Positions 2,812 through 26,605 of a stretch of DNA of 64,000 nt are shown in pieces. This stretch comes from Paralimibaculum aggregatum (GTDB lineage: Bacteria > Pseudomonadota > Alphaproteobacteria > Rhodobacterales > Rhodobacteraceae): positions 62,001 through 126,000 of the forward strand of contig NZ_BSYI01000003.1 of NCBI RefSeq assembly GCF_030270585.1. The letters run 5' to 3'. The translations under genes and the position numbers were made by a program. The notes beneath the pieces are model-generated. The model had not been told where the DNA came from. It did no database searches and saw nothing but the letters and a program-made list of their open reading frames with translations. Position 1 is the first letter of the stretch, and each line of letters starts with the position of its first letter.

Positions 2812-4578
2812 CGCCCGCGCCCGCCACCACCGGCGCACCCGCGGCGGCCCCCGGACCGGACCAGCCAGCGCCCGCGGCCCGTTGCCACCGGCGTGCCCAC
2901 GGCGGTTGCCGGACCGGACCAGCCGGCAATGCCGCGCGCGCGGGCGGTCGGGCACGTCAGCGGAGCGGGTGCGCCAAGCTGGCCGGCGCGCTTGCCCCGT
3001 AGCCCCGCCATGACCGCGGCCAGCGCGGACGGACGGCCGGGCGGCGTCGGGCAGGGCCGGGTTTCAGGGGGCATGGAGGCCGGCAGGGCTCGGCTCCGTC
3101 CTCACTTTCCGGATCGCGGCGACGACAACGGCTGCGGCGGCGACGACAGCAGCGGCGGTGCCGTAGCCCGGGGGCCGACCGCCGCGAAACCAGCCCTGTC
3201 CACCGCAATCGCCGGGCGGCCCGGCCGCCTCCGCGGCGCGGGCGTGCCCTGCCTGTCGGCGCTCTCGCCCCGCGGCCCCGTCAAGACCGCGGGCCGCGCG
3301 GACGGGCTGCCGGGTTGCGCGTGCCGGGCCGACCTTCGGGGGTATGGAGAACGGCAGGGCTCGGCTCCGGCCTCCCGGCGGCTGCGCAGGCAACCGCGAA
3401 ACCGGCCTTCTCTACCGTCATTGCCGGGCGGTCCGGCCGCCTCCGCGGCGCGGGTGCGCAGTGCCTGCCGGCGGGCTTGGCTCGCGGCGCCGGCATGACC
3501 GTAGCCCGCGCGGACGGGCTGCACGGGCAGGGCCGACCTTCGGGGGCATGGAGACCGGCGGGGCTCGGCTCCGGTCTCCCGGCGGCTGCGCAGGACGGTG
3601 CGAAACCGGCCCTGTCCACCGTCGTCGCCGGGCGGTCTGGTCGCCTCCGCGGTGCGGGCGCGCCCTGTCTGCCGGCTGGTTTGCCACGCGGCCCCGGCAT
3701 GGTCGCAGCCCGCGCGGACGGGCGGCCGGCCTGCGCGGGGCAGGGCCGACCTTCGGGGGTATGGAGACCGGGAGGGCTCGGCTCCGGTCTCCCGGCGGCT
3801 GCGCAGGACGGTGCGAAGCCAGCCCTGTCCACCGTCATCGCCGGCCGGCCCGGCCGCCTCCGCGGCGCGGGCGTGCCCTGCCTGTCGGCGCGCTCGCCCC
3901 GCGGCCCCGGCATGACCGCGGCCCGCGCGGCCGGGCTGCGCGGGGCAGGGCCGGCCTTCGGGGGGCATGGAGACCGGCAGGTCTCGGCCCCGCCCTCCTG
4001 GCGGCTGCGCAGGATGCCGTGAAACCGGCCCTGTCTACCGTCATCGCCGGGCGATCTGGTCGCCTCCGAGGTGCGGGCGCGCCGTGCCTGCCGGCGGGCC
4101 GCGGCCCCGTCAAGACCGCGGGCCGCGCGGACGGGCTGCCGGGTTGCGCGTGCCGGACCGACCTTCGGGGGTATGGAGACCGGCAGGGCTCGGCCTCGCC
4201 CTCCCGGCGGCTGCGCGGGATGCCGCGACGCCGGCCCTGTCCACCGTCGTCGCCGGGGGGTCGGGGCGCCTCCACGGTGCGGGCGCGCAGTGGGCTTGCC
4301 CCGCGTCCCCGGCATGATCGCAGCCCGCACGGACGGGAGGCCGGGCTGCGCGGGGCAGGGCCGGTTTTCGGGGGGGATGGAGGCCGGCAGGGCTCGGTTC
4401 CGGCCTGCCTTCCCGGATCGCGGCGGCGACGATGGCTGCGGCCGTGGCGACAGCAGTGGCGGCGGTGGTAGCGGCGGTGCCGTGGCCTGGCGGGCGGCCG
4501 CCGCGGCTCCGGCCGGCCGGGGCGCCGCGGGTAGAGCCGCGGGAACGGGGGTTCGCCGCGGCGCGGTTTCGCCGGCCG
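2812..4578. repeat. Array of ~205-bp degenerate tandem repeats carrying a fragment of the upstream PepSY gene
   Basis: No gene is supported here. Near-copies of a unit that starts with (G)GCCGACCTTCGGGGG begin at about 3331, 3535, 3748, 3953, 4160 and 4363 (spacing 203-213 bp), with a diverged unit from about 3059. Each unit contains a block like GCGCAGGACGGTGCGAAGCC plus CTGTCCACCGTCATCGCCGG, which matches the PepSY gene at ~2610-2665. One forward frame (3315-4022) preserves LPAAAQDGAKPALSTVIAG in successive units, but unit lengths are not all multiples of three. Related GATCGCGGCGACGA-type segments flank the array at ~3110-3168 and ~4410-4486. A separate 60-bp duplication lies at 2822-2924. 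Confidence 0.8.
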
Positions 4579-5323: not shown

Positions 5324-5752
5324 ATGGCCTCAGAGGCTTTCGAGGACCTGGTCGCGGAGTTCGAACTCTTCGACGACTGGGAGGAGCGCTACCGCTACGT
5401 CATCGAGCTCGGCAAGGCGATGCCGCCGCTCGGCGAGGGCGAGCGCGTGCCGGCGCACAAGGTCGAGGGCTGCGTCAGCCAGGTCTGGCTGGTGCCGGAG
5501 CTGGCCGGCGCCGGCGCCGATGCCCGGCTCGATTTCCGCGGCGACAGCGACGCGATGATCGTGCGCGGGCTGATCGCGGTGCTGCACCGGCTGTTCGCCG
5601 GCCAGCGGCTCGCCGACGTGGCGCGCACCGACGCCCATGCCGAGCTCGCCCGGCTCGGGCTCGACACCGCGCTCTCGGCGCAGCGCTCGAACGGGCTGCG
5701 CGCCATGGTGGCGCGGCTGCAGGGCCTGGCGCGGGCCGCCGCCCCGGCCTGA
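5324..5752 (+). CDS. sufE: SufE family cysteine desulfuration protein
   Basis: A 142-residue cytoplasmic protein that accepts persulfide sulfur from the SufS cysteine desulfurase and passes it to the Suf scaffold during Fe-S cluster assembly. The diagnostic segment KVEGCVSQVW holds the persulfide-accepting cysteine at about residue 50, and the C-terminal half has the conserved RSNGLRAMVARL helix. Length is normal. The ATG at 5324 follows GGGAGG at 7 nt. No other suf genes are in the window. The last codons and stop (CCCGGCCTGAGCGGCC) recur in the repeat array that begins directly after the gene. Confidence 0.93.
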   Translation: MASEAFEDLVAEFELFDDWEERYRYVIELGKAMPPLGEGERVPAHKVEGCVSQVWLVPELAGAGADARLDFRGDSDAMIVRGLIAVLHRLFAGQRLADVARTDAHAELARLGLDTALSAQRSNGLRAMVARLQGLARAAAPA

Positions 5753-6250
5753 GCGGCCCCCGGCTCGCCCGGCCTGACGGCTTCGGCCCGGCCTGACGGC
5801 CCCGGCTCGGCCCTGTCTGACCGGCCCGGTCTGTCCCGGTTGGCCCGACCCCGCGACCTGGCCCGGCCTGACCTGCCCCGGCTCGCCCGAGCTGGCCCCG
5901 CCTGACGGGCCTGACCTGCCCCGGTTGGACCAATCTGGCCCGGCCGGACGGGCCAGATCTGCCCCGGCTCGCCCGAGCTGGCCCGGCCTGACCTGCCTGA
6001 CCTGACCCGGTTCGCCCGACCTGACCTGGCCTGACGGGCCTGACCTGCGCCGGCTCGCCCGTGCTGGCCCGGCCTGAGCGGCCTGTCCTGCCCCGGTTCG
6101 CCCGTGCTGGCCCGGCCTGAGCGGCCTGACCTGCCCCGACTCGACGGACGCGGCACGGCCTGACGGGCCTGACCGGATTGGCCCGACCGGCCCGGCCCGG
6201 TCTGTCCCGGCTGGACCGGCTCGACGCGCCCGGCAGATCGCCCCGGCAGT
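5753..6250. repeat. Degenerate short-unit array after sufE, including copies of the sufE stop context
   Basis: About 500 bp made of variants of 'CCCGGCCTGACCTGCCCCGGCTCGCCCG' with an irregular period near 40-45 bp. The exact sufE 3' end CCCGGCCTGAGCGGCC reappears at about 6069 and 6114. No start-codon/ribosome-site combination or protein family is seen in any frame. Confidence 0.75.
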
Positions 6251-6311: not shown

Positions 6312-6390
6312 CCTGGCCGGCGGTGCCATTTGCGTGACCTTGGCGGCGCCCCTATAGGATGGGGCCACGCGACTCATGGAGGATCCGCAG

Positions 6391-7407
6391 ATGACCGATG
6401 CCCTCACCGCGCTCCTGGCCCGGCGCGACTGGCTGCTGCTCGACGGCGCCACGGGGACCAATCTCTTCGAGATGGGCCTGCAGTCCGGCGAGGCGCCCGA
6501 GCTCTGGAACCTCGACGCGCCGGAGAAGATCCGCGCGCTGCATGACGGCTTCATCGAGGCCGGCTCGGACGTGATCCTGACCAATTCCTTCGGCGGCTCG
6601 CGCTACCGGCTGAAGCTGCACGCCGCCGAGGACCGGGCCTACGAGATCAACCGGGCCGCCGCCGCGATCGCCCGCGGCTGCGCCGACGCCTCGCCGCGCG
6701 AGATCATCGTCGCCGGCTCGGTCGGCCCCACCGGCGAGATCCTGGCGCCGGTCGGCTCGCTCTCCGAGGACGATGCCGCCGCCGCCTTCGCCGAGCAGAT
6801 CCGCGGGCTGATGGATGGCGGCGCCGACGTGATCTGGGCCGAGACGATCAGCTCCGAGGAGGAGATGCGCGCCGTGCACCGCGCGGCGGCCGGGCTCGGC
6901 GCGCCGTTCTGCGGCACGCTCAGCTTCGACACCGCCGGGCGCACCATGATGGGCGTGACCTCCGAGGGCTATGCCGCGCTGGCCGCGGGCCTCGCGCCGC
7001 AGCCGATCGCGATCGGCGCCAATTGCGGCACCGGCGCGCCGGACCTGCTGCGCACCGTGCTCGGCATCACCGCCGCGGCGCCGGAGCGGGTGGTGATCGC
7101 CAAGGGCAATGCCGGCATCCCGAAATATGTCGACGGGCACATCCACTACGACGGTACGCCGGAGCTGATGGCGGATTACGCCCGCCTCGCGCGCGATGCC
7201 GGGGCGCGGCTGATCGGCGGCTGCTGCGGCACCAAGCCCGAGCATCTGCGGGCGATGCGCGCGGCGCTCGAGGCCCATGTGCCGGGCGCCCGGCCCGGGC
7301 TCGAGGCGATCACCGCGCGGGTCGGCGGCTTCACCTCGGCCTCGGACGGCACCGGCGACGACGAGGGCGCCGAGGGCCGCACCCGCCGCCGCCGCCGCCG
7401 GGGCTGA
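6391..7407 (+). CDS. bmt: Betaine/homocysteine S-methyltransferase family protein (homocysteine-binding module of a split methionine synthase)
   Basis: A 338-residue TIM-barrel homocysteine methyltransferase. It begins with WLLLDGATGTNLFEMG and carries the zinc-thiolate ligands in GANCGTG (Cys212) and GGCCGT (Cys278, Cys279). In Rhodobacterales such stand-alone homocysteine-binding proteins act with a separate corrinoid protein, here encoded at 12996, as parts of a B12-dependent methionine synthase; betaine as methyl donor is the alternative. The ATG at 6391 follows GGAGG at 8 nt and was preferred to the ATG at 6376. The protein ends in an unusual Arg-rich tail encoded by a CGC repeat. The final ~45 codons are the source of the repeat array downstream. 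Confidence 0.87.
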   Translation: MTDALTALLARRDWLLLDGATGTNLFEMGLQSGEAPELWNLDAPEKIRALHDGFIEAGSDVILTNSFGGSRYRLKLHAAEDRAYEINRAAAAIARGCADASPREIIVAGSVGPTGEILAPVGSLSEDDAAAAFAEQIRGLMDGGADVIWAETISSEEEMRAVHRAAAGLGAPFCGTLSFDTAGRTMMGVTSEGYAALAAGLAPQPIAIGANCGTGAPDLLRTVLGITAAAPERVVIAKGNAGIPKYVDGHIHYDGTPELMADYARLARDAGARLIGGCCGTKPEHLRAMRAALEAHVPGARPGLEAITARVGGFTSASDGTGDDEGAEGRTRRRRRRG

Positions 7408-8000
7408 CCCGCCGCCCCTGCCGCCTGGGCTGATCCGCCGTCGAGGCGGACGGTGCTCGCGCGCCGCCGCTGCTGCGGCCGGGGCAGGTCCGCCACGGCC
7501 GAGGCAGATCCGCCGCCGCCGCCGCCGCCGGGGCTGACCGGCAGCCGTCGAGGCGGACGGTGCTCGCGCGCCGCCGCTGCTGCGGCCGGGGCAGGTCCGC
7601 CGCGGCCGAGGCAGATCCAACGCCGCTGCCGCCGCTGGGGCCGACCGGCAGCCGTCGAGGCGGACGGTGCTCGCGCGCCGCCGCTGCTGCGGCCGGGGCA
7701 GGTCCGCCACAGCCGAGGCAGATCCGACGCCGCCGCCGCCGCCGGGGCTGACCGGCAGCCGTCGAGGCGGACGGTGCTCGCGCGCCGCCGCCGCTGCGGC
7801 CGAGGCAGGTCCGCCGCGGCCGAGGCAGATCCGCCGCCGCCGCCGCCTGGGCAGATCCGCCGCCGCCGCCGCCTGGGCAGATCCGCCGCCGCCGCCGCCG
7901 GGGCAGATCCGCCGCCGCCGGGGCAGATCCGCCGCCGCTGCCGCCTGGGCTGATCCGCCGCCGCCGCCGAGGCGGACGGGGCTGACCCGCCACCGCTGTC
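7408..8000. repeat. 107-bp exact-period tandem array followed by a CGC/CAGATC microsatellite
   Basis: Units starting TCGAGGCGGACGGTGCTCGC lie at 7441, 7548, 7655 and 7762, spaced exactly 107 bp, with few differences between copies. Each unit contains a block (GCCGCCGCCGGGGCTGACC) that matches the last codons and stop of bmt. From about 7829 to 7970 it degenerates into GCAGATCCGCCGCCGCCGCC units of 20-25 bp. A 107-bp period shifts frame every unit, so it is not a coding repeat. Confidence 0.88.
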
Positions 8001-8040
8001 GGATCACCCCGTCGGCAAACCGCCCGCTCCCCGCCACGCC

Positions 8041-9760
8041 CATCCCGAACCGTTGCAGGCGCCAGCGGACGTGCTCGCGGCCGAGCGGACCGGCGACGTC
8101 ACCGCGGCCCCGGACAAGAGGGCAGCCGGCCTGCGCGCAGCCGCGCGCGCCGGTGCCTTCCCCGCAACCTCGGACGACACCGGCGGCAACAAGGGCGCCC
8201 AAAGCCGCACCCGCCGCCGCCGAGGCAGATCCGCCGCCAGACCGCCCACCCTCCGCCACGCCCATCCCGAACCGTTGCAGGCGCCAGCGGACGTGCTCGC
8301 CGCCGCGCGGACCGGCGACGTCACCGCGGCCCCGGACAAGAGGGCAGCCGGCCTGCGCGCAGCCGCGCGCGCCGGTGCCTTCCCCGCACCCTCGGACGGC
8401 ACCTGCGACAACAAGGGCGCCCAAAGCCACCCGCCGCCGCCGAGGCAGATCCGCCGCCAGACCGCCCACCCTCCGCCACGCCCATGCCGAAACACTGCAG
8501 GCGCCAGCGGGCCTGCTCGCGGCCGCGCGGATGGACGACGTCACCGCGAACCCGGCTAGCCCCGGCGACGCCAGGGGCGCCGAGGCCCGCTTTCACACCG
8601 CCGCCAGGGCTGATCCGCCGCCGCTGCCGGAGCGCCCCGCCGGCAGGCCGCCCGCCCTCCGCCATGCCCATGCCGAAACCTTGCAGGCGCCTGCGGGCGT
8701 GTTCCTGGCAGCACGGGCCGGCGATCCCGCCGCAGCCTCGGACGACACCTGCGACGACGCGAGGCCCGAGGGTCGCACCCGCACCCACCACCGCCCCCGA
8801 GGCCGACGCGCCGCCGCGGGGGTGTCCCGCTACCAGACCGCCCGCATCTCTCCCAGTCCTTGCCGAGGGAAGCCGAGGGCAGCCGCCGTCGTCGTCGCGG
8901 CGCGGGCAGGCGGCTTCACCGCAGCTTCGGTCGGCACCAACGACGACGAGTGTCCCGAGGGCCTCCACCCCCGCCATCGCCGGGGCAGATCCGCCGCCGA
9001 CGCCGGATCACACCGCCGGCAGATCGTTCGCCCCCTTCCCTGTCTTCGCCATGTGATGCCGAGAGCCGCCGGCGTGATCGTGGCAGCGCTGGCCGGCGAC
9101 TTCCCTGCAACCTCGGACGACACCGGCGGCGACGAGCGTCCCGAGGACCGGCACCCCCACCATCGCCGGGGCAGAGCTGACGCCGGCGCCGGATCGCACC
9201 GCCGGCAGATCGTTCGCCGCCTTCCCTGTCCTCGCCAGGTGAAGCCGAGAGCCGCCAGCGTGATCGTGGCAGCGCTGGTCGGCGACATCCCCGCAACCTC
9301 GGACCACACCGGCGACGACGAGGGTCCCGAGGGCCTCCACCCCACCATCGCCGGGGCAGATCTGACGCCGACGCCGGATCGCACCGCCGGCAGATCGTTC
9401 GCCCCCTTCCCTGTCTTCGCCAGGTGAAGCCGAGAGCCGCCGGCGTGATCGTGGCAGTTCTGGTCGGCGACTTCCCGGACCTTGGACGACAGCGGCGACG
9501 CCGAGGGTTCCGCGGACCGCCACCCCCACCATCGCCGGGGCAGATCCGACGCCGACGGCGGAGCGCCCCGCCGGCAGATCGTTCGCACGCCGCCCCGCAC
9601 TCCCCGAGCCTGGCCGAGAGCAGCCGGTGTGCGCGGGTCGGCCGCTGCACCGCGGCTTCGGACAGCACCGGCGGCGGAGCGCACGCCGAGGGCTGGGCCC
9701 GCCGCCGGGGATGATCCGCCGCCGCAGCCGGAGCGCCTCGCCGGCAGGTCGCGGCACCCG
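8041..9760. repeat. Long array of ~220- then 186-bp units derived from the bmt 3' end
   Basis: Phase markers occur at 8041, 8263, 8483 and 8669 (CATCCCGAACC / CATGCCGAAAC), then at 9058, 9244 and 9429 (GCCGAGAGCCGCC). Periods are 222, 220, 186, and later 186 and 185 bp. Every unit carries a diverged copy of the bmt C-terminal coding region: the gene's VGGFTSASDGTGDDEGAEG is matched by, for example, AGGFTAASVGTNDDECPEG near 8910 and VGDIPATSDHTGDDEGPEG near 9275. About nine copies can be traced, centred near 8140, 8375, 8540, 8720, 8905, 9090, 9275, 9465 and 9640. A long open frame crosses the array because the 186-bp period is divisible by three, but it has no start signal. Confidence 0.85.
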
Positions 9761-10448
9761 CCATGCCCGTGCCCGGTGAAGCGGGGGCAGTGGGCGTGCT
9801 GGAGACCGCGCGGCGGGCTGACCGCTGCCGCTGGCAGGGCGCGGACGAGTTGCCTTTCCCCATGGTCCCGCACCGCCGGCCGCGCGGGCGCTGCGGGGCG
9901 GGCGCCGCTCTGGCGGCTTGCCGGGAGCGGTCCGGCGCGGAGGCATGGCAGCCGGCGCGGATCGTCTCCGGGCCGGTCGCGGTCTGCGGCGGCAAGGCCT
10001 CGGAGCCTCCGCCCCCCTATGGCTCGCGGCGCCCGTCCGGCAGCGATCCCGGCGCCCGGCATATCCCCAGCGAGCGCGACGGAAGGTCCGCTGGCGATCC
10101 GGGCGGCGGCGCGGCCGGCGCTGGCGCCATCCGTTCCGGTGTCCGCTTGGGCTCAGGGGAGGTCTGCCGCGAAGCCGGCGCCTGTCCGCGAGAGGATCTC
10201 GCCCGACGGCATTGCCGCCGTTCCGGGTGCGACAAGCCGGGCGAGGCCGGCCGCATGACCGGCACCGCCGGCGGAAGGGTGACGGTTCCCTCCCCGGTGC
10301 CCGGATGGCGGCGCCGCGCGGCTGCCCGGATACCGCCTCGGCCGCGCTCAACGGGGGCGAAGACGGCCGCAGCGCCCCGGCTCGTCCGCAGCGGCCGGGT
10401 TCGCCATTGTCAACGGCCATGGCTCGCGGTCGCGGTGCGGCATGGCTC
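9761..10448. other. Gene-free GC-rich spacer between two repeat arrays
   Basis: No supported gene, RNA or clear repeat period is visible. Open frames exist on both strands but overlap one another, lack ribosome sites and have low-complexity Arg/Pro/Ala composition. Confidence 0.5.
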
Positions 10449-12010
10449 GATGTCCCGACAACGCCGCCGGCGGGCTGCAGGGGATGCGCCTCGGCGCGCC
10501 AGACGATGTGATCAAGACACGGGCCAGCGACACCTCGCCCGAAGGCGCGGCCTGGACCGGCCGAGTGTCCGGATGATGCCGCCGGAAGGGTTGTCCCGAA
10601 TGCGCTTCGGCGGCCCCGAAAGGGGGGCGACAGCCGCGGCGGTCCCGGCTCGACCGCAATGGACGGGTCTGGCAACGGCGGCGGCCATGTGCCGGGGGCC
10701 GTGCCGGGGATGATCGGCGCCATGGCCATGACTGCGACCTCGCCCGGCCCGATGTCCGGACAATCCGCCGGCGGGCAGCAGGGGATGAACCTCGGCGCGC
10801 CAGACAGTGGAACCATGACAGGGGAGACCGACACCTCGTCCGAGGGCGCGGTCTGGCCCGGCCCGGTGTCCGGATGATACCGCCGGAAGGGTTGTCCCGA
10901 ATGCGCTTCGTAGGCACCGAAAGGCGGAATGACAGCCCCGGCTCGACCGGAATGGCCGGGTCTGGCAACGCCGGCGGCCATGGATTGGGGGCGTGGCGCG
11001 GCTGACCGGCGTTCCGCTCGCGGCGGCGATCTGGCCCGGCCCGATGGTCGGACAACGCCGCCGAGGGGTTGCGCCGGATGCGCTTCGGCGCATTGGACAA
11101 TGGGGCAGTGGCGCAGCTCATCGGTGGCTCGCCCGGGGGCGTGGTCCTTCCGCGCATGGTATCTTGGCAGCATCGCCGGAGGGGTCCCGGGGCGCATCCC
11201 GGCCGCACTGGACGTGGGCGACGGGCGATGGCAGCCGCGGCGACCCCGGCTCGTCCGCGGCGGCCGGGTTCGCCATTGCCGGCGGCCGTGGCTCGCGGTC
11301 TTGGTCCTGCCTGGCCCGATGTCGGGACAACACCGCCGGAGGGGCTGCCCGGGATGCGTTTCGGGCGCGCCGAAAGGGGGCGACAGCCGCGGCGGTCCCG
11401 GCTCGACCGCAATGGCCGGGTTTGGCAACGCCGGCGGCCATGTCCGGAGGGCATGGTGTGGGTGACCGGCGCCCCGCTTGCGGCTGCGATCTGGCCCGGC
11501 CCGATGTTCGGAGAGCACGGCCAGCGGGGCAGCTCGGAATGCGGCCTGGCTGCGCTGAACGAGGGTGACGATGGCTGCGGCGGCTCCGGCTCGACGGCGG
11601 CGCGCGGAGTTGCCAACGGCGGCAATGCCCCCGTGGCCGTGGGGCGGGCGATCGACACCTCGAACGACGGCGCGGTCTGGCCCCGCCCGGTATCCGGGCA
11701 CCACCTCCGGAGGGATCCCGGGGCGCATCTCGGCGGCACCGGTTGGGGCGACGGGTGACGGCGGCAGCGGCGGCCCCGGCTGGACCCGGTGGCGGGTTCG
11801 GCAGCTCGGCGGTCATGTCCCGGTGGGCGCGGCGGAGGGGGACGGGGGCCTTGCTCGCGGCCGCGGTCTTGCCGGGCTCGGTGGCGGGGCCATGACCGCC
11901 GAGGGGGTGTGCGGGATGCGGCTCGGCCGTGCTGGCCGGGGTGAGGAGGGCTGCGGCGGTCGGGCCTCGACCGGGGCGGACGGGGGTGCCCTTGACGGCG
12001 GCCATGTGCC
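10449..12010. repeat. Array of alternating ~115- and ~185-bp diverged units
   Basis: A half-unit of the form 'CCGGACAAnnCCGCCGGnGGGnTG...GGATGCGCnTCGGCG' begins near 10449, 10565, 10751, 10866, 11043, 11160, 11319, 11503, 11690 and 11885. Pairs of half-units, followed by 'TGGCAACGnCGGCGGCCATG', give a super-period of about 290-300 bp (10449, 10751, 11043). The parent sequence is not identified; no resemblance to bmt or to the corrinoid gene was seen. Very long overlapping open frames on both strands here are explained by GC content. Confidence 0.7.
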
Positions 12011-12040
12011 GGGGCGGTGGCGCGGGGGATCGGCATCCGG

Positions 12041-12452
12041 CTCCTGGTTGCGGTGTGGCTCGCCCGATGCCCGGTCGGGTGCCGGATTGCGGCATCGCGG
12101 GGGCGGGCGGTTCCGTCGCTGCGCGGCTGGATCGCCTCGGCGCGCTGGGGGGCGTGCTGGCGCATCGCGAGATCTGGCTCTTGGTTGCAGTGTGGTGCGC
12201 CCGATGTTCGGTCGGGTGACGGATTGTGGCATCGCGGGGGGCGGGCAGGTCCGTCCCTGCGCGGCGTGATCACACCGCAGCAATGCGGGGCGTGCTGGCG
12301 CATCGCGAGATCTGGCTCCTGGTTGCGGTGTGGTGCGCCCGATGCCCGGTCGGGTGCCGGATTGCGGCATTGCCGGGGGCGGGTAGGTCCGTTCCTGCGC
12401 GGCGTGATCGCCTCGGCGCACTGGGGAGGCGTGCTGGTGCATCGTGAAGGCC
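12041..12452. repeat. 137-bp tandem repeat, three copies
   Basis: Units begin CTCCTGGTTGCGGTGTGG at 12041, CTCTTGGTTGCAGTGTGG at 12178 and again at 12316 (spacing 137 and 138 bp). Each runs through GCCCGATGCCCGGTCGGGTGC and ends with GCGCATCGCGAGATCTGG. The period is not a multiple of three, arguing against coding. From 12453 to the gene at 12996 there is gene-free, GC-rich sequence with short GCCGGATTGTGGGCTGCCGGC-like echoes. Confidence 0.8.
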
Positions 12453-12995
12453 CGGAGGTGGTTGGCTGCGGCGTGGTGTGCGGCCTGGATTGCGGTTCGG
12501 ACCGGGGCCGGGACTGCGGCGCGATGGGCCGGGCGCTGTCGGCCCCGGGCTGCGCCGGCTTGTGGCTGGCCGGCTTCGGGCCGTTGCGGCGGATTGTAGT
12601 CGTCGGGCTTCGGGCCTCTGCGGCTGCGCCGGATTGTGGGCTGCCGGCTTGGGGCTGCTGCCGTGCCGGCATTCGGCCGGCCGGCCCCGGGCGCCGCTGC
12701 CGCGTCGGCGTCCGGACGGCCGGACCCGGCGGTTTCGGGCCGCTGCGGCCGCTGCGGCTGCTGCGCGGGCGGAGGAGGAGGCGCTGGCGCGGCCGGCGCG
12801 GGGAGCGCCTCGTGTCGCGGCGGCCCGTGGGCGGCCGGGGGCGCCGCGCGCCGTGGCTGCGTCCGAAATGCAACGCCCGGGGCTTGCCGTGGCCGCGTCG
12901 GTTTGGGGCCAGAAAATGCCGCGTTTGTGGGCGGTTTCCGGCCCCGCCTGCTCCAGATTGGGGTAGCAGCGACACCTATCGAAGCGGGAAGCGAG

Positions 12996-13703
12996 ATGTC
13001 AGACGAAGAAGACGATATCGTTCTGTCCGAACTCGACGACGACGAGCTCGTCCAGCAGATGCATGACGACCTCTACGACGGTCTCAAGGAAGAGATCGAG
13101 GAGGCCGTGAACATCCTGCTCGAGCGCGGCTGGATGCCCTACGACATCCTGACCAAGGCCCTGGTCGAGGGCATGCGCATCGTCGGGATCGACTTCCGCG
13201 ACGGCATCCTCTTCGTGCCCGAGGTGCTCCTCGCGGCGAACGCGATGAAGGCCGGCATGTTCATCCTGAAGCCGCTGCTCGCCGAGACCGGCGCGCCGAA
13301 GCTCGGCTCGATGGTGATCGGCACCGTGAAGGGCGACATCCACGACATCGGCAAGAACCTCGTCTCGATGATGATGGAGGGCGCCGGCTTCGACGTCTAC
13401 GACCTCGGCATCAACAACCCGGTCGAGAACTACATCGAGGCGCTGGAGCGGCACGAGCCCGACATCCTCGGCATGTCGGCGCTGCTGACCACCACCATGC
13501 CCTACATGAAGGTGGTGATCGACACGCTGAAGGAGAAGGGCATCCGCGACGACTACATCGTGCTGGTCGGCGGCGCCCCGCTCAACGAGGAGTTCGGCAA
13601 GGCGATCGGCGCCGATGCCTATTGCCGCGACGCCGCGGTGGCGGTCGAGACCGCCAAGACCTACGTGACGCGCAAGCACAACCTGCTCGCCGCCGGCGGC
13701 TGA
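12996..13703 (+). CDS. Corrinoid (B12-binding) protein, MtbC/MetH-like
   Basis: A 235-residue methyl-carrier protein. Residues ~10-95 form the four-helix cap domain of methionine synthase-type corrinoid proteins (LLERGWMPYDILTKALVEGM, IDFRDGILFVPEVLL). Residues ~100-230 form the Rossmann-like B12-binding domain with GDIHDIGKNLV, His116 being the lower axial cobalt ligand, then MSALLTTTMPYMK and LVGGAPL. It would carry the methyl group between a pterin or other donor and the homocysteine methyltransferase at 6391. The ATG at 12996 starts the conserved acidic N-terminus MSDEEDDIVLSELDDDELVQQ. 5.6 kb of repeats separate it from bmt. Its 3' end is duplicated downstream. Confidence 0.92.
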   Translation: MSDEEDDIVLSELDDDELVQQMHDDLYDGLKEEIEEAVNILLERGWMPYDILTKALVEGMRIVGIDFRDGILFVPEVLLAANAMKAGMFILKPLLAETGAPKLGSMVIGTVKGDIHDIGKNLVSMMMEGAGFDVYDLGINNPVENYIEALERHEPDILGMSALLTTTMPYMKVVIDTLKEKGIRDDYIVLVGGAPLNEEFGKAIGADAYCRDAAVAVETAKTYVTRKHNLLAAGG

Positions 13704-13753: not shown

Positions 13754-14178
13754 GCCCGCGTTGCGCGGAGGGGCGCATCGCGGGGCGTGGGGAGGCCGGG
13801 CGGGCGCTCGGCGGACCTCCGCCCCTCGGCCAGAGCGGCAGCGAATGGCCGGGCATCCCCGACACACGGGCGCGCGGCCCCTGCGGACGGCCGCCCGCCG
13901 CGGGCGAACGGTTCCTGCGGACGAGCGACCCATGTGCGCGAACGGCCCGTCCGGGCAAGCGAGCGCCCGCTGCGGCCGAGCCTCATCGCGCCGCGGCTCC
14001 CCGCCGGGCCCTGCCGGATGCCGGGGCCCTGCCGCGTTGCGCGGAGGGGCATCGCGCCGCCGCAGGAAGGCGGGGCGGGCGCCCGACGGCGCTCCGGCCT
14101 CCCGGCCGGACCAACCGTGCAGGGCCGGCATCCCCGCTGCGAGGGCGCGCGGCCCCTGTATCCTGCCGGCCCACGACG
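13754..14178. repeat. Diverged repeat sequence between the corrinoid gene and its 3'-end copy
   Basis: Gene-free. Contains another terminator-like copy (GGGCCCTGCCGGATGCCGGGGCCCTGCCG near 14007) and repeats of GCGTTGCGCGGAGGGGC(G)CATCGCG at about 13758 and 14034, showing that sequence around the corrinoid gene terminator was duplicated more than once. Confidence 0.6.
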
Positions 14179-14331
14179 CTCCGCTAGATGCGGAGTTCGG
14201 CAAGGCGATCGGCGCCGATGCCTATTGCCGCGACGCCGCGGCGGCGGTCGGGACCGCCAGACCCTACGTGTCGCGCAGGCACCACCTGCCCGCCGCGGGC
14301 GGCCGAGCCGCAACGCGCCGCGGCCCCCCGC
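14179..14331 (+). pseudogene. Duplicated 3' end of the corrinoid gene (degenerate)
   Basis: Near-identical to 13575-13727, the last ~40 codons and stop region of the corrinoid gene. GAGTTCGGCAAGGCGATCGG and GATGCCTATTGCCGCGACGC are conserved exactly. The copy has a TAG where the parent has CTCAAC, and the parent stop TGA has become CGA, so it cannot encode the same C-terminus. It includes the following terminator, placing the duplication at DNA level. Confidence 0.85.
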
Positions 14332-14359
14332 AGGGCCCTGCCGGACGGCGGGGCCCTTT
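14332..14359 (+). terminator. Intrinsic-terminator-like hairpin (copy of the corrinoid gene terminator)
   Basis: AGGGCCCTGCCG-GA-CGGCGGGGCCCT forms a stem of 11-12 bp with one G-U pair, followed by TTTCGCGTTT. It ends the duplicated segment that began at 14179. Confidence 0.5.
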
Positions 14360-14403
14360 CGCGTTTCCGAGGGAGGTTGACGGAGGTCAAGGCCGGGTCC
14401 GGA

Positions 14404-14484: not shown

Positions 14485-14934
14485 ATGAACAAGACCCTCT
14501 CCCGCATCGGCGCCGCGCTGGCGCTCGCCACCGGCCTCGCCGCCGCCCCGGGTGCCGTCGCCGGCGAGCGCACGTCGCTCGTCACGGTTCTCACCGCCGC
14601 CGATCCGCAGACCCAGCTCATGAGCATGGTGCTCTCGATGCAGGCGCTGATGGCCGGCGCGCCGGTGCATGTCCTGCTCTGCGGCCCGGCCGGGGATCTC
14701 GCGCTTGCCGAGCCGCCGGCCGGCGCCACCGCGCCGCAGAAGCCGAAGGGCATGAGCCCGCAGGGGCTGATGCGGACGATCATGGCCAAGGGCGGCACGG
14801 TGGAGGTCTGCGCGCTCTACCTGCCCAACAGGGGCGTCGGCCCGGAGGCGCTGATCGCGGGCGTCGCGGCGGCCCGGCCCGGCCCGATGGCGGCGCGGCT
14901 GCTGGCCGACGACACGCGCATCATGTCGTTCTGA
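14485..14934 (+). CDS. Periplasmic DsrE-family protein
   Basis: A 149-residue protein with a signal peptide (MNKTLSRIGAALALATGLAAAPGAVA-G) and a DsrE/F-like sulfur-relay domain: SLVTVLTAADPQTQLMSMVLSMQ, then VHVLLCGPAGDLAL with a conserved Cys, then GGTVEVCALYLPN with a second Cys, and LLADDTRIMSF at the end. DsrE-type proteins carry or sense sulfane sulfur; here probably in the periplasm. ATG 14485 follows AAGGAGG at ~9 nt. It lies 12 bp upstream of a periplasmic rhodanese, almost certainly in one operon, suggesting joint handling of thiosulfate, sulfide or persulfides. Confidence 0.82.
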   Translation: MNKTLSRIGAALALATGLAAAPGAVAGERTSLVTVLTAADPQTQLMSMVLSMQALMAGAPVHVLLCGPAGDLALAEPPAGATAPQKPKGMSPQGLMRTIMAKGGTVEVCALYLPNRGVGPEALIAGVAAARPGPMAARLLADDTRIMSF

Positions 14935-14946
14935 GGAGGAAACCCG

Positions 14947-15540
14947 ATGCGATTCGCACCGCTGGCCGCGCTTGCGGCCGCCATCCTGCTCGCCGCGCCG
15001 GTCATCGCCGCGCCCGAGCCGGAAGACCCGAAGATGCAGACCGCCTGGGGGCTCTACCTCACCGCGCGGGAGGCCTACGAGATGAAGATGGCGGAGGGCG
15101 ACGGCGTGCTCTTCGTCGATGTCCGCGAGCCGGTCGAGATCATGTTCACCGGCTTCACGGATGTGGTCGATGTGAACCTGCCCTACCTGCTGGTGAACCC
15201 GGCGAAGTGGAACCCGGAGAAACCGGTGCTCGCCATGGAGCGGAACCCGGACTTTGCGGCGGGCGTCATGGCGGCGCTGGCGGCACGGGGGCTCGGGCCG
15301 GAGACGCCGGTGATCCTGATGTGCCGCTCGGGCGGGACCCGCGGCGCGCCCTCGGCACGGGCGCTCGAGGGGCAGGGGCTCGCGAAGGTCTATGTGGTGG
15401 TGGACGGCTTCGAGGGCGCCGCCGTGAAGGACCACCCCAACGGCCCGTGGCGGCTCAGGAACGGCTGGAAGAACTCGGGCCTGCCCTGGGGTTACAGCCT
15501 CAACCCGGACAAGATCCACCTCCGTGCGGCGGGGTTCTGA
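14947..15540 (+). CDS. Periplasmic rhodanese-like sulfurtransferase
   Basis: A 197-residue exported protein. Signal peptide MRFAPLAALAAAILLAAPVIA-A is followed by one rhodanese domain: VLFVDVREPVEI near the start and the active-site loop CRSGGTRG with Cys126. Rhodaneses bind and move sulfane sulfur; the six-residue loop is the single-domain type. The C-terminal segment with NGWKNSGLPW resembles rhodaneses found in sulfur or c-type cytochrome loci. GAGGAGG precedes the ATG. The gene is co-transcribed with the DsrE protein at 14485. Confidence 0.87.
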   Translation: MRFAPLAALAAAILLAAPVIAAPEPEDPKMQTAWGLYLTAREAYEMKMAEGDGVLFVDVREPVEIMFTGFTDVVDVNLPYLLVNPAKWNPEKPVLAMERNPDFAAGVMAALAARGLGPETPVILMCRSGGTRGAPSARALEGQGLAKVYVVVDGFEGAAVKDHPNGPWRLRNGWKNSGLPWGYSLNPDKIHLRAAGF

Positions 15541-18218: not shown

Positions 18219-18745
18219 GTCTCTATGCCTTGGGGGAGGATGCGCCCCGACTGCCGGACGGGCCGCACTACATCGCGCCGGGGGCGGCGCTGATCGGGGA
18301 CGTGACGATCGCACCGGACGTCTCGATCTGGTTCAACGCCGTGCTGCGCGGGGACAACGAGCCGATCACCATCGGGCGCGGCTCCAACATCCAGGACGGC
18401 GCGGTCTGCCACACCGATCCGGGCTTCCCGCTGGTGGTCGGCGCCGATGTCACGGTGGGCCATCTGGCGATCCTGCATGGCTGCACGGTGGGCGACGGCT
18501 GCCTGATCGGCATGGGCGCCGTGGTGATGAACGGCGCGCGGGTCGGCAGGGGCTGCCTGATCGGCGCCAAGGCGCTGGTGCCCGAGGGCCGCGAGATCCC
18601 GGACGGCGCGATGGTGCTCGGCAGCCCCGGCAAGGTGGTGCGCGTCCTCGATGCCGAGGCGCAGGCCGGGCTGCTGCGCGCCGCCGAGGCCTATCGCGAG
18701 AAGCTGGCGCGCTATTCCGCCGGGCTCAGGCCGGCCGGCGGCTGA
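18215..18745 (+). CDS. Gamma-carbonic anhydrase family protein
   Basis: A 176-residue left-handed beta-helix protein of the YrdA/gamma-CA family. Hexapeptide repeats run through [21 protein letters not shown], then [10 protein letters not shown], then [15 protein letters not shown]. The three histidines in CHTD, VGHLA and LHG fit the metal-binding triad. Activity (carbonic anhydrase or acyl-group enzyme) cannot be told. ATG 18215 follows GGAGGG and overlaps the gmk stop. The C-terminus (GLRPAGG and stop) converges on the chpT 3' end, and this junction has been amplified downstream. Confidence 0.9.
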
Positions 18746-18885
18746 GCGCTCAGGCCGCCCGCAGGCAGAGCGCCGCGCCGGCGGCGACCAGCGCGGGCCC
18801 GAGCAGGTGAAACCCGATCAGCCGCGGGTCGATCCGCCCGGGCTCCGCGCCCGTGTCTTCGCCGGGGGCCGCGGCGGCTGAGCGC

Positions 18886-19200
18886 TCAGGCCGCCAGCAG
18901 GCAGAGCGCCGCGCCCTCGGCCGCGGTCTCGAGCGCCAGCGCGGCGCCGGCGGCGGTGACCGCGGGGCCGAGCAGGTGGAACCCGATCAGCCGCGGGTCG
19001 ATCCGGTCAGGCTCCGCGCCCCGGTTCGCGCCCGTGGCCGCGCCCGTGCCCGCACCCGTGTCCACGCCGGAGGTCGCGGCGGCCGCGCCGGCGAGCAGCG
19101 CCAGCCGCGCGGCGCGATGCGCCAGGGCGGCGCCCTCGGCGGCGATCCGCGCCGGCCAGGCGCCGTCGGCCGGGATCGTCAGCATCAGCCGGCCCCGCAT
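18886..19200 (-). pseudogene. Copy of the chpT C-terminal 100 residues
   Basis: An open 104-codon frame starting MRGRLMLTIPADGAWPARIA and ending with the chpT C-terminus. It is clearly homologous to residues ~140-254 of the intact protein at 19664-20428, with in-frame indels in the Gly/Thr/Asp-rich insertion. It has no Shine-Dalgarno sequence and lacks the phosphorylatable histidine domain, so it is treated as a gene fragment. The frame has stayed open, so translation is not excluded. Confidence 0.75.
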
Positions 19201-19230
19201 CCGGGCTCGGGCCGGCCGGCGGCTGAGCGC

Positions 19231-19545
19231 TCAGGCCGCCCGCAGGCAGAGCGCCGCGCCGTCGGCCGCGGTCTCCAGCGCCAGCGCGGCGCCGGCGGCG
19301 GTGACCGCGGGGCCGAGCAGGTGGAATTCGATCAGGCGCGGGTCGATCCGCCCAGGCTCCGCGCCTTGGCTCTCGCCCGTGGCCTCGCCCGTGCTCGCAC
19401 CCGTGTCCTCGCCGGAGGTCGCGGCGGCCGCGCCGGCGAGCAGCGCCAGCCGCGCCGCGCAATGCGCCGGGGCGGCGCCCTCGGCGGCGATCCGCGCAGG
19501 CCACGCGGCCTCTGCCGGGTTCGTCTGCATCAGCCGGACCTGCAT
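19231..19545 (-). pseudogene. Second copy of the chpT C-terminal 100 residues
   Basis: A 104-codon frame (MQVRLMQTNPAEAAWPARIA ... GAALCLRAA) homologous to the chpT C-terminal half and ~85-90% alike to the copy at 18886-19200 by eye. No ribosome site is seen. The junction to the next copy carries the last codons and stop of the gamma-CA gene. Confidence 0.75.
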
Positions 19546-19663
19546 TCGGGCACAGGCTGGCCGGCGGCTGAGCGCTCGGGCCGCCCGCAGGCAGAGCGCC
19601 GCGCCGGCGGCGGCGACCGCGGGGCCGAGCAGGTGGAAACCGATGAGCCGCGGGTCGATCCGC

Positions 19664-20428
19664 TCAGGCCGCCCGCAGGCAGAGCGCTGCGCCGTCGGCC
19701 GCGGTCTCGAGCGCCAGCGCGGCGCCGGCGGCGGCGACCGCGGGGCCGAGCAGGTGGAACTCGATCAGCCGCGGGTCGATCCGCCCGGGCTCTGCGCCCG
19801 GGTTCTCGCCCGGGTTCTCGCCCGTGGCCGCGGCCTTGTCCGCGCCCTTGTCCGCGCCCGTGCCCGCACCCGTGTCCTCGCCGGGAGCCGCGGCGGCCGC
19901 CCGGGCGAGCAGCGCCAGCCGTGCCGCGCGATGCGCCGGGGCGGCGCCCTCGGCGGCGATCCGTGCCGGCCAGGCGCCGCCTGCCGGGATCGTCAGCATC
20001 AGCCGGCCCTGCATGCCGAGCAGCCCGCGCGCGCAGAGCGTTGCCAGCGCGACGGCGCGGGCCGCGGGCCGGGGCAGCGCCGGGCCCCCGGCGCCGTCGA
20101 GATCGACCCGCACCCGGCTGCCCGCCAGCATGTCGCTCAGCAGCGCCGCCAGCGCCGGCCGGGCCATCGGCGGCGCATCGGCGCCGGCGGCGCCGAAGGC
20201 GAGCCGGTGGAAGGCCAGCATGGTCGCGGCCCGCGCCGCGCTCTGGCCGATCATCGCGATCTCCTCGGCGCCGGCGGAGCCGAGCTCCTGCACCAGGTCG
20301 ACGCCGTTGGTGATCGCGCCGACCGGGCTGACCAGATCGTGGCAGATCCGGCTCGCCAGCGCTTGTGCAAGGGCCGCGGAGCCGTCTAGGCTCGCCGGAG
20401 GCGCGGCGGTAATGGGGGACTCCTGCAT
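19664..20428 (-). CDS. chpT: Histidine phosphotransferase ChpT-like protein
   Basis: A 254-residue alphaproteobacterial histidine phosphotransferase. The N-terminal dimerisation domain has LASRICHDLVSPVGAITNG with phospho-acceptor His30, then a second helix and GQSAARAATMLAFHRLAFGAAG. The degenerate ATPase-like C-terminal domain follows. ChpT passes phosphate from CckA to CtrA and CpdR in cell-cycle or motility control; in Rhodobacterales it governs CtrA-dependent traits. The C-terminal domain carries an unusual insertion of ~35 residues rich in Gly/Ala/Thr/Asp (GEDTGAGTGADKGADKAA...) also present, in varied length, in the downstream copies. Its ATG (reverse of 20426-20428) overlaps the ATG of the divergent DUF3553 gene by two bases. 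Confidence 0.87.
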   Translation of the reverse strand: MQESPITAAPPASLDGSAALAQALASRICHDLVSPVGAITNGVDLVQELGSAGAEEIAMIGQSAARAATMLAFHRLAFGAAGADAPPMARPALAALLSDMLAGSRVRVDLDGAGGPALPRPAARAVALATLCARGLLGMQGRLMLTIPAGGAWPARIAAEGAAPAHRAARLALLARAAAAAPGEDTGAGTGADKGADKAAATGENPGENPGAEPGRIDPRLIEFHLLGPAVAAAGAALALETAADGAALCLRAA

Positions 20429-25873: not shown

Positions 25874-26605
25874 TCAGGCGCCGTCCCAGGGCGGGGCGCC
25901 GGTGTCCCTGCGGGCGAGCAGCCGCGGCGGGCGGCGCCGGGCGGCCTCGGCGAACATCGGGCCGACATTGCGCCCGAAGCTCGAGACGTTGTCGACCATC
26001 CGGACATGGCGCGCGAGGGCAGGGGTGTCCGCCGCCTCGAACAGCTCCGGCAGCAGCGCCGGGTCGTCGAACTCCGGCAGCAGATAGGCCAGCGGATCGC
26101 CGCGGCGGATCACCCAGTCGCGGTCGCGGTCCTGCCATTCCAGCACCGCGTTGAGCGCCCGCGGCCAGTGCGTGAGCGGGAAGCGCCCGCAGGTCAGCGT
26201 GCCGGGCCAGCCCCTGAAGCTCTCGGCCAGGAAGGGCGGCAGCAGGCTCAGCGTGCAGGGCCGGTCGGTGACCAGGTGGAGGTTGAGCGAGAGCTGGAGC
26301 GCCGGGTGGTCCGGGCCGCGCTGGGCGGCCGGCAGGACATGCGTGGCGAGCCCCTGGAAGCCCGCCTCCGAGAGCCCGCCGGGCTCCGCCACCCGCATGA
26401 AGCGCACCGGCCGCACCGCCGGCGGCGAGATCCGCACCCGCAGGTCGAAACCGGCGCGGGCCTGGATCAGCCGCGCGCCGAGCCCGCCGGCCAGCGCCGC
26501 GACCGCCGGCGGCAGCGGCTCCGGCGGCAGGAAGGCGAGCGCGGCCTGCGGCGACTGCATGCGCCAGCCGATCGGCGCACGCGGGGCGGCGCGATCAGGC
26601 GACAT
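25874..26605 (-). CDS. Conserved hypothetical protein, paralogue of the upstream gene product
   Basis: A 243-residue protein related along its length to residues ~20-250 of the product of 26595-27785. Both share a LVTDxPCxxSLxPPFL block, then RxWPGxxxxxRxPLxxWPxxL, then an E-W segment and RxGxPLAYxLxEFxxP. No catalytic motif or export signal is recognised; DUF6065 is a possible family, unverified. ATG 26605 was chosen: it overlaps the stop of the upstream paralogue by 11 bp (ATGTCGCCTGA) and begins just before the shared GW motif. The long in-frame extension upstream is read from the repeat tract in another frame and is not believed. Confidence 0.7.
   Translation of the reverse strand: MSPDRAAPRAPIGWRMQSPQAALAFLPPEPLPPAVAALAGGLGARLIQARAGFDLRVRISPPAVRPVRFMRVAEPGGLSEAGFQGLATHVLPAAQRGPDHPALQLSLNLHLVTDRPCTLSLLPPFLAESFRGWPGTLTCGRFPLTHWPRALNAVLEWQDRDRDWVIRRGDPLAYLLPEFDDPALLPELFEAADTPALARHVRMVDNVSSFGRNVGPMFAEAARRRPPRLLARRDTGAPPWDGA

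Follow-up and report, generated by a model that had tools for sequence, protein, structure and literature searches.

Repeats that carry the end of a gene have been described in E. coli, where those downstream of tyrT (rtT) and rnpB follow stable-RNA genes and each contain that gene's 3' end. The MIRU elements of Mycobacterium tuberculosis form arrays in spacers, with units of tens of base pairs that can touch stop and start codons and that make up one dispersed family. Deletion bias and selection are generally considered to keep bacterial spacers short. Among the open-access PMC papers listed in our searches we found no earlier report of gene-tail arrays behind bacterial protein genes. The sections consulted of a survey of prokaryotic satellites report some species with more than 4 satellites per Mb, and 36 long-repeat satellites in M. 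ruminantium that are mutually unrelated, scattered and at least half non-coding (PMC6749651). Borgs, which are archaeal elements, are described in the part of the study consulted as carrying many independently arisen arrays that are virtually absent from host genomes, with perfect, recently formed and A-enriched repeats (PMC9879509).

To this picture we add an array behind bmt in Paralimibaculum aggregatum (G000), found in a stretch of 64,000 nucleotides that we call the window (Table 1). Comparison of the window with itself by blastn led to the identification of nine head-to-tail, diverged copies of the final ~100 bp of bmt at 8141-9730, which are 73.9-79.4% identical to positions 7313-7416. 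This bears out the preliminary description of the locus, according to which the end of bmt recurs about nine times downstream. Each unit scored 54-89 against the bmt tail and exceeded all of its 200 dinucleotide shuffles (means 19-22, top shuffle 38), which places the nine units 9-23 standard deviations above shuffled sequence; with its arginine run removed, the tail still scored 73, and no shuffle exceeded 34. The spacing first given, 222, 220 and then 186 bp, was only roughly right, the in-register spacings derived from self-blastn being about 222, 160, 186, 189, 186, 186, 185 and 174 bp. Identity between units ranges from 62 to 96%. The gene caller placed no gene in the spacer that holds the array. 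This spacer is the longest of all those in our genome sample (1.664 Mb, 30% of the genome) and measures 186 and 265 bp in two congeners against 5,651 bp here.

Table 1. Features of the bmt locus and of other repeat-bearing loci in the window.
Feature	Position	Strand	Remarks
PepSY gene (2563-2811), arrays behind it	2812..4406	+	period 58 at 2812-2924, period 206 at 3180-4406
sufE-like gene (5324-5752), period-43/86 array behind it	5801..6174	+	NCBIfam scores of the gene under cut-off
bmt, betaine--homocysteine S-methyltransferase (betaine-homocysteine methyltransferase)	6391..7407	+	NCBIfam NF005718, E=1.1e-156, 521 bits, cut-off 338; intact source gene; alternative start at 6376
Recurring bmt segment	7313..7416	+	last 95 bp including stop, plus 9 bp of spacer; window self-blastn
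Sub-array A	7389..7998	+	TRF period 107, 5.8 copies; unit combines the terminal ~20-25 bp of bmt, stop region included, with ~80 bp of spacer
bmt-mtgC spacer	7408..13058	+	5,651 bp
586-aa open frame	7667..9427	+	noted earlier; not taken as a gene
Sub-array B	8019..8555	+	TRF period 222, 2.4 copies; tail units 1 (8141-8238) and 2 (8363-8458), mutually 96% alike
Tail units 3 and 4	8523..8815	+	8523-8629 and 8711-8815; 62% alike
Sub-array D	8869..9586	+	TRF period 186, 3.9 copies; tail units 5 (8900-8998), 6 (9086-9184), 7 (9272-9369) and 8 (9462-9553)
Tail unit 9	9631..9730	+	farthest unit; most gene-like (83%)
Further degenerate direct repeats	10320..12035	+	bmt-mtgC spacer; several spacings, about 150-460 bp; no match to bmt
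Period-138 array	12035..12444	+	bmt-mtgC spacer; 3 copies; TRF
mtgC-like corrinoid protein gene	13059..13703	+	best NCBIfam score under its cut-off; Pfam B12-binding
Repeats from the 3' end of gene 19664-20428 (minus strand; weak HPTransfase match)	18720..20014	-	overlap the 3' part of the gene

In four relatives (G001, G002, G003 and G008) the product of bmt ends in a similar tail (RPSLDEIRARLGEFSSASDGT...EGRRRRRRG in the case of G003), and in the stretches examined none of them carries a tandem array or a tail copy behind the gene. Since these relatives have the tail without the array, sequence comparison identifies the 3' end of bmt as the source of the units, as had been proposed. At bmt and at other genes the copies extend beyond the stop codon into the spacer; they are therefore copies of DNA segments and not of coding sequences.

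As at tyrT/rtT, the nine units each carry the 3' end of the upstream gene, here bmt, but the source is a protein gene instead of a stable-RNA gene and nine such loci occur in 30% of the genome. The bmt array thus resembles these gene-end repeats without being a member of them. Unlike MIRU units, the bmt units have no match in the other spacers sampled from that 30%. With head-to-tail units above chance and a non-coding location, the array has the properties of bacterial non-coding tandem repeats (minisatellites or satellites), and it shares long head-to-tail units with prokaryotic satellites, minisatellites and VNTRs. It differs from the satellites described in the consulted sections of the survey in that its units begin in the 3' end of the neighbouring gene and are strongly decayed, and in that the arrays of this genome lie almost only behind gene ends; the density found here, ~47 arrays per Mb by TRF, and those of the survey rest on different criteria and are not directly comparable (PMC6749651). 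Many independently arisen arrays in one group are common to this genome and to Borgs as presented in the part of that study consulted, but here the units are diverged, not near-perfect, GC-rich and on a bacterial genome (PMC9879509).

The preliminary description, though right about the array at bmt, was silent on the same event behind other genes of the window and of the genome. The last 147 bp of the mtgC-like gene and 59 bp of its spacer are copied at 14160-14365 (82% identity overall, 85% for the 147 coding bp alone), and the repeats derived from the minus-strand gene include a TRF array of period 345 at 18872-19615. The PepSY arrays contain five copies of a gene-internal piece (2603-2663) and not of the tail, which counts against duplication debris as the explanation. 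Across the 1.664 Mb we identified 83 intergenic tandem arrays with a median period of 99; with the window excluded, 75 remain in 1.6 Mb (47/Mb) and cover 11.3% of non-coding bases. Copies of the adjacent gene (at least 60 bits) were present in 10 of 642 gene/3'-spacer pairs and in 2 of 822 5'-spacer pairs, the ten 3' pairs representing 9 loci with several different functions. Without the window the figures are 5/611 for 3' tails and 1/783 for 5' heads (P=0.09), and this too weakens the duplication explanation.

Run with the same settings on 800 kb from five relatives, the search gave 2 intergenic arrays, one in G003 (200 kb) and one in G009 (120 kb), and none in G001 (200 kb), G008 (160 kb) or G011 (120 kb). 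Genes of G009 and G011 were called with relaxed settings (74.8% and 80.6% coding), and their 38 and 50 3' pairs respectively contained no tail copies. A survey of bmt loci, covering the best 80 of 555 confirmed loci (961 kb), yielded 8 arrays in total, coding ones counted; among the 78 loci with sufficient downstream sequence there were two in which the tail matched over a short length, 16 and 28 bp, neither of them an array. We also compared spacers between conserved neighbours. Against G003, 20 pairs sum to 9,532 bp in G000 and 2,035 bp in the relative, with 8 longer by more than 100 bp in G000 and none shorter; against G001, 43 pairs sum to 11,120 and 3,748 bp (8 longer, 2 shorter); and against G008, 26 pairs sum to 2,993 and 2,560 bp (3 longer, 4 shorter). 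The bmt-mtgC spacer alone contributes 5,651 bp to the G000 totals in the G003 and G001 comparisons. This comparison indicates that growth is concentrated in certain spacers; it is not general, as the 26 pairs with G008 illustrate, a point against duplication debris. Spacer swelling behind gene ends is common in G000 and rare among the relatives sampled.

It had also been suggested that the array grew outward from the gene, with the older and more diverged units farther away. Identity to bmt is 80, 80, 76, 78, 80, 74, 77, 74 and 83% for units 1 to 9; it shows no trend with distance, and the farthest unit is the closest to the gene. A tree of the units and the bmt end is roughly star-like, with bmt on a short branch and two younger local groups (units 1-2 and 6-8). 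We therefore abandoned outward growth. Unit-to-gene divergence is 0.22 (176/784 sites), and since it lies below the third-position divergence of bmt from the four relatives (0.27-0.43), the sequences are consistent with formation of the array after the split from them, the two measures not being strictly alike.

We consider it likely that local tandem duplication produced the array and that it is now non-coding, decaying debris, neutral and specific to this lineage. Segments of ~100-220 bp, reaching from within the final ~100 bp of bmt into the spacer, would have been duplicated head to tail. A duplication spanning the stop codon would leave the first copy, which is the real gene, intact and add a 3' fragment without a promoter downstream of it. 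In further rounds parts of the array would have been copied again, which would account for the sub-arrays of period 107, 222 and 186 bp; the copies would then have drifted free of constraint. The same process may have acted behind other, unrelated genes of the genome and left some 3'-side spacers swollen. From these data we infer that the array is selectively neutral.

The long open frame reported earlier, partly conserved with respect to bmt, does exist, and units 3-7 lie within it mainly in the bmt frame; together with the periods of 222 and 186, divisible by three, this would suit an array that is or recently was protein, either as a repeat extension of the Bmt C-terminus or as an independent repeat protein built from bmt tails. 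Units 1 and 2 are read in it mainly in another frame. The period of 107 is not divisible by three, and among the 83 array periods multiples of three are modestly overrepresented (remainders 0, 1 and 2 occur 37, 23 and 23 times). The frame length is within chance: frames of at least 585 codons arose in 30 of 200 shuffles, and the observed 587 codons (stop counted) were matched in 120 of 1000. Substitution rates at codon positions 1, 2 and 3 are 0.237, 0.265 and 0.171 between gene and units, against 0.14-0.17, 0.15-0.16 and 0.27-0.43 between bmt orthologues; the third-position excess of the orthologues is absent from the units, which show no coding signature and no constraint in frame with bmt. 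The frame has no NCBIfam match and was not picked by the gene caller, and bmt itself stops at its own stop codon with a length similar to that of its orthologues. On the shuffles, the codon-position rates and the lack of a family match we rejected a coding array, to which we give hardly any credence; length by itself is not sufficient ground for annotating as genes the open reading frames predicted in such GC-rich tail arrays. A function as RNA or DNA (3' UTR, terminator, small RNA or protein-binding site) maintained by selection appears improbable, if somewhat less so. RNA roles for such arrays are proposed by the authors of a Bacillus tandem-repeat survey, in the portion consulted (PMC8161180), and 33 of 170 columns are invariant among the units and the gene tail; but the DNA has a GC content of 72-83%, and 32 of these 33 columns are G or C. 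On the sense strand the units show no covarying fold (covariation term +0.53 kcal/mol, 1 of 13 pairs compensated), the array has no Rfam match, and terminator-like sites (1 against 1.2 expected) and promoter-like sites (0 against 0.1 expected) are not in excess. Moreover, the array is missing in congeners that share the gene order. Some spacers of the genome do carry dispersed elements, about 70-230 bp long, as would suit a mobile or dispersed repeat that chanced to capture the bmt end. The bmt spacer had no match at E<1e-6 among the other 589 sampled spacers of at least 100 bp (30% of the genome), and this also speaks against a function. In a whole-genome search with bmt (40 of 1,333 candidates scored), the nine matches listed outside contig C3 fall in the gene body (query 141-952; 42.8-60.8 bits) and not in the tail. 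We therefore discarded a mobile element, which is very unlikely; because its spacer matches no other one sampled, the bmt array was probably made in place.

Neutral debris could accumulate wherever it is tolerated, or duplication could be aimed at gene ends. Arrays occur in 22 of the 94 spacers between convergent genes, in 28 of the 454 between co-directional genes and in 1 of the 184 between divergent genes (without the window 20/88, 25/435 and 1/174; P=2.9e-5); when the replicate contigs are taken by themselves, the shortage in divergent spacers does not reach significance (1/41 against 10/122, P=0.29), which counts against the debris explanation. A simple model in which arrays are filtered out of promoters, with a 200-bp buffer, predicts 18.9 arrays in convergent, 21.4 in co-directional and 10.7 in divergent spacers where 22, 28 and 1 are seen, and fails on the divergent class. 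Because this deficit exceeds what promoter avoidance predicts, neutrality plus a promoter filter may be an incomplete account. It is possible, although we think it doubtful, that mutation is directed to 3' ends: transcription would leave positive supercoiling or stalled complexes behind genes, most severely between convergent ones, and forks would stall at these places and re-copy a stretch. This concerns the origin of the duplications and is compatible with neutral units. In its favour, arrays are more frequent the more 3' ends a spacer has, by 3.8-fold from one end to two and so more than in proportion, and the divergent deficit persists with 200 bp allowed for promoters on each side. The order of the classes also agrees with a published supercoiling map for E. 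coli and yeast which, in the part consulted, places positive supercoiling at 3' ends, highest between convergent genes and depleted at 5' ends (PMC8360656). Yet arrays in co-directional spacers are not clearly nearer the end of the upstream gene (15 of 28; median 122 against 215 bp), and regulatory regions longer than assumed could yield the same deficit. We also considered loss of a repair gene as the cause. However, mutS, mutL, recJ, mfd, a gene for an RNase H domain protein and radA are all present in G000, G001, G002, G003 and G008 (mutS of G001 being read as two pieces under cut-off), and therefore none of these six explains the lineage specificity.

Under the duplication-debris explanation this lineage would have gained intergenic DNA by recurrent local duplication, the products of which mark the 3' ends of genes. 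If the bias is mutational, the arrays would be a fossil record of disturbance between transcription and replication, and G000 with its compact congeners offers a ready comparison; if it is selective, they would show directly at which places inserted DNA is accepted in bacterial spacers and at which it is not. The molecular step would be slippage or a switch of template during replication, or else unequal exchange among the copies. Breakpoints were inspected for microhomology in 21 near-identical tandem duplications, 5 of which lie in coding sequence; the repeat overruns one period by 1-105 bp, an overrun that in arrays of more than two copies is indistinguishable from a further copy.

Behind bmt, the intact betaine--homocysteine methyltransferase gene, we found nine copies (u1 to u9, numbered outward from the gene) of its final ~100 bp together with the stop codon and a few bases beyond, at 74-79% identity. 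The preliminary description of about nine repeats of the gene's tail was thus borne out, and comparison with dinucleotide-shuffled sequence placed all nine units far above the shuffles (z 9.2-22.7, 200 shuffles each). Other repeats flank the units.

Features of the bmt locus and of other repeat-bearing or duplicated loci in the window
Feature	Position	Strand	Description
bmt	6391-7407	+	intact gene; profile match
107-bp array	7389-7998		in front of the nine units; unit includes just the final ~20-25 bases of bmt
Nine tail units	8141-9730
Further degenerate repeats	10320-12655		3' of the nine units, same bmt-mtgC spacer; no match with bmt as query
Two small genes	14485-15540		one with weak Rhodanese match; between mtgC-like gene and next syntenic gene, which in congeners lies almost directly 3' of mtgC-like gene
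Repeats, TRF period 345	18720-20014		behind and inside end of minus-strand gene 19664-20428; two 105-codon ORFs of the gene caller (18886-19200, 19231-19545) are copies of its C-terminal end
15-bp repeats	26599-27070		~31 copies, keeping the reading frame; C-terminal part of minus-strand gene 26595-27785, at its 3' end
Adjacent genes	49240-50091, 50163-51017		~66% DNA identity across 800 bp; apparently a tandem gene duplication of the ordinary sort

The units had also been described as lying in a long open frame that partly conserves that of bmt. Such a frame exists (586 amino acids; 587 codons with the stop) and u3 to u7 lie within it mainly in the bmt frame, but u1 and u2 mainly do not and its length is within chance, since 120 of 1000 shuffled versions of 7408-9800 contain a frame at least as long. 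Longer frames, of 730 and 906 amino acids, overlap the array region on the opposite strand. Substitutions between gene and units at codon positions 1, 2 and 3 (61/257, 70/264 and 45/263) speak against a conserved frame; they indicate that the units drift as non-coding DNA because they show no third-position excess, unlike the bmt orthologues of four relatives, where third positions are the most variable (0.27-0.43 vs 0.14-0.17). Nor did the proposed outward growth of the array, with distant units more diverged, find support: identity to bmt from u1 to u9 is 80, 80, 76, 78, 80, 74, 77, 74 and 83%, with no fall with distance. The unit tree has a roughly star-like background in which the branch of bmt itself is short, and this is how a gene under constraint should look beside copies that drift freely. 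Local secondary expansions are visible in the tree (u1-u2 at 96%; u6-u8 at 86-90%).

The order rnd, a minus-strand gene (lipoprotein-like, judged by eye), sufE-like, bmt, mtgC-like and the gene ending at 16446 is kept compactly in three congeners (G001, G002 and G003); in a further relative, G008, the sufE-bmt part was examined. The bmt-mtgC spacer, at 5,651 bp the longest in our sample of the genome (G000; 5.5 Mb in 201 contigs, the window being C3:62001-126000), measures 186 bp in G001 and 265 bp in G003, and the region bounded by rnd and the 20853-21629 gene covers ~20.4 kb in the window vs ~9.0-9.1 kb in G002 (L010) and G003 (L012). Because the C-terminal tail of bmt is present in G001, G002, G003 and G008, the array derives from the gene. 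No tail array was found behind bmt at the 80 best of 555 bmt loci in other genomes (961 kb in all), among which the Limibaculum sediminis gene is the most alike of those listed (77%); isolated tail matches of 16 and 28 bp occur at 2 of 78 testable loci. Spacer growth in G000 is not general: 26 conserved spacers total 2,993 bp, hardly longer than the 2,560 bp in G008.

Arrays were then counted with TRF (period at least 30, score at least 100) on stretches of G000, using gene calls from a home-made caller with a periodic Markov model that recovers the rnd, bmt, sufE-like, mtgC-like and OmpA-like genes of the window. In a first sample of 1.264 Mb, 13.1% of non-coding bases lie in intergenic arrays, of which there are 66; a second sample, 400 kb of other contigs, added 17, giving 83. 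Without the window there are 75 in 1.6 Mb (46.9/Mb; 11.3% of non-coding bases), vs two in 800 kb of five relatives at the same settings (G001 0/200 kb, G003 1/200 kb, G008 0/160 kb, G009 1/120 kb, G011 0/120 kb). The arrays of G000 cluster along the sequence: counts per 20-kb bin have a mean of 1.0 and a variance of 3.0, and 50 of the 83 bins hold no array. Array density correlates weakly with local coding GC (rho 0.37).

Among spacers of at least 60 bp, arrays occur in 22/94 convergent, 28/454 co-directional and 1/184 divergent ones (divergent vs rest, P=6e-6). The bias persists with the window excluded (20/88, 25/435 and 1/174; P=2.9e-5; convergent vs co-directional, P=4e-6). In the 400-kb replicate alone convergent spacers again exceed co-directional ones (6/18 vs 4/104, P=7e-4), and divergent spacers (1/41) are not significantly low (P=0.29). 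Counting matches of 60 bits or more, genes have copies in their own 3' spacer in 10 of 642 pairs (nine loci, one array accounting for two pairs) and in their own 5' spacer in 2 of 822, namely one inside that same minus-strand array and the gene at C2:209983-210609. Antisense matches to the adjacent gene number 0/642 (3') and 0/822 (5'), and ~632,000 non-adjacent pairs gave 17 sense and 4 antisense matches; with the window excluded, 3' and 5' copies stand at 5/611 vs 1/783 (P=0.09). The sources are bmt, the mtgC-like gene, LpxK-family, Sua5-family, 4-alpha-glucanotransferase-family and PepSY genes, one gene with a weak HPTransfase match and two without a Pfam match (one scanned over its first 115 residues); no common function is visible among the nine. 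At other loci, as at bmt, copies cross the stop codon into the spacer. Behind the gene at C2:19656-20888 its last 149 bp recur with 98.7% identity (L096, L097), the offsets being 201, 431 and 632, and judged on sequence this is the youngest tail duplication seen in G000.

Gene-end repeats occur behind E. coli tyrT and rnpB. Long non-coding tandem arrays are a known kind in prokaryotes (excerpts of PMC6749651 and PMC8161180), and Borg arrays may begin within the end of an ORF (excerpt of PMC9879509). Open PMC text yielded no earlier report of protein-gene-end arrays like those of G000, which is weak evidence of absence; decayed arrays that were seeded by the ends of several protein genes, and that gather behind gene ends within a single bacterial genome, look like a new form of such tandem arrays. 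This genome-wide pattern is the finding, and the bmt array itself is probably debris of neutral duplication, irrespective of what causes the bias.

The best explanation of the bmt array is random local duplication with a filter at starts and stops. A tandem duplication across a stop codon would leave the upstream copy whole and create a fragment without promoter or start, and would be harmless by construction, whereas one across a start codon would give truncated products and a disturbed promoter; copies of tails downstream of genes, and seldom of heads upstream of them, are therefore predicted. Divergent spacers are nevertheless emptier than a promoter filter predicts: with starting spacer lengths from G001, G003 and G008 and 200 bp free before every gene start, 10.7 divergent arrays were expected vs 1 observed. 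The leading rival, a 3'-directed duplication process, seems to us rather unlikely, although the order of arrays by spacer class resembles that of transcription-driven positive supercoiling, which in E. coli and yeast is ordered in the same way (excerpt of PMC8360656). Loss of a repair or conflict-resolution gene as the cause of the lineage-specific arrays was rejected for the six sought (mutS, mutL, recJ, mfd, an RNase H and radA), all present in G000. The mutS of G000 is in one piece, and that of G001 (G001:C33:148880-151487) reads as two abutting frames, by frameshift or assembly error.

Spacers of G000 on C2, C6, C9, C10 and C11 (L096-L101, L153-L156, L165-L168, L209-L218) also carry dispersed elements of ~70-230 bp in both orientations (73-98% identity in best pairs; 162 spacer pairs at E<1e-6), which are probably families of interspersed repeats.
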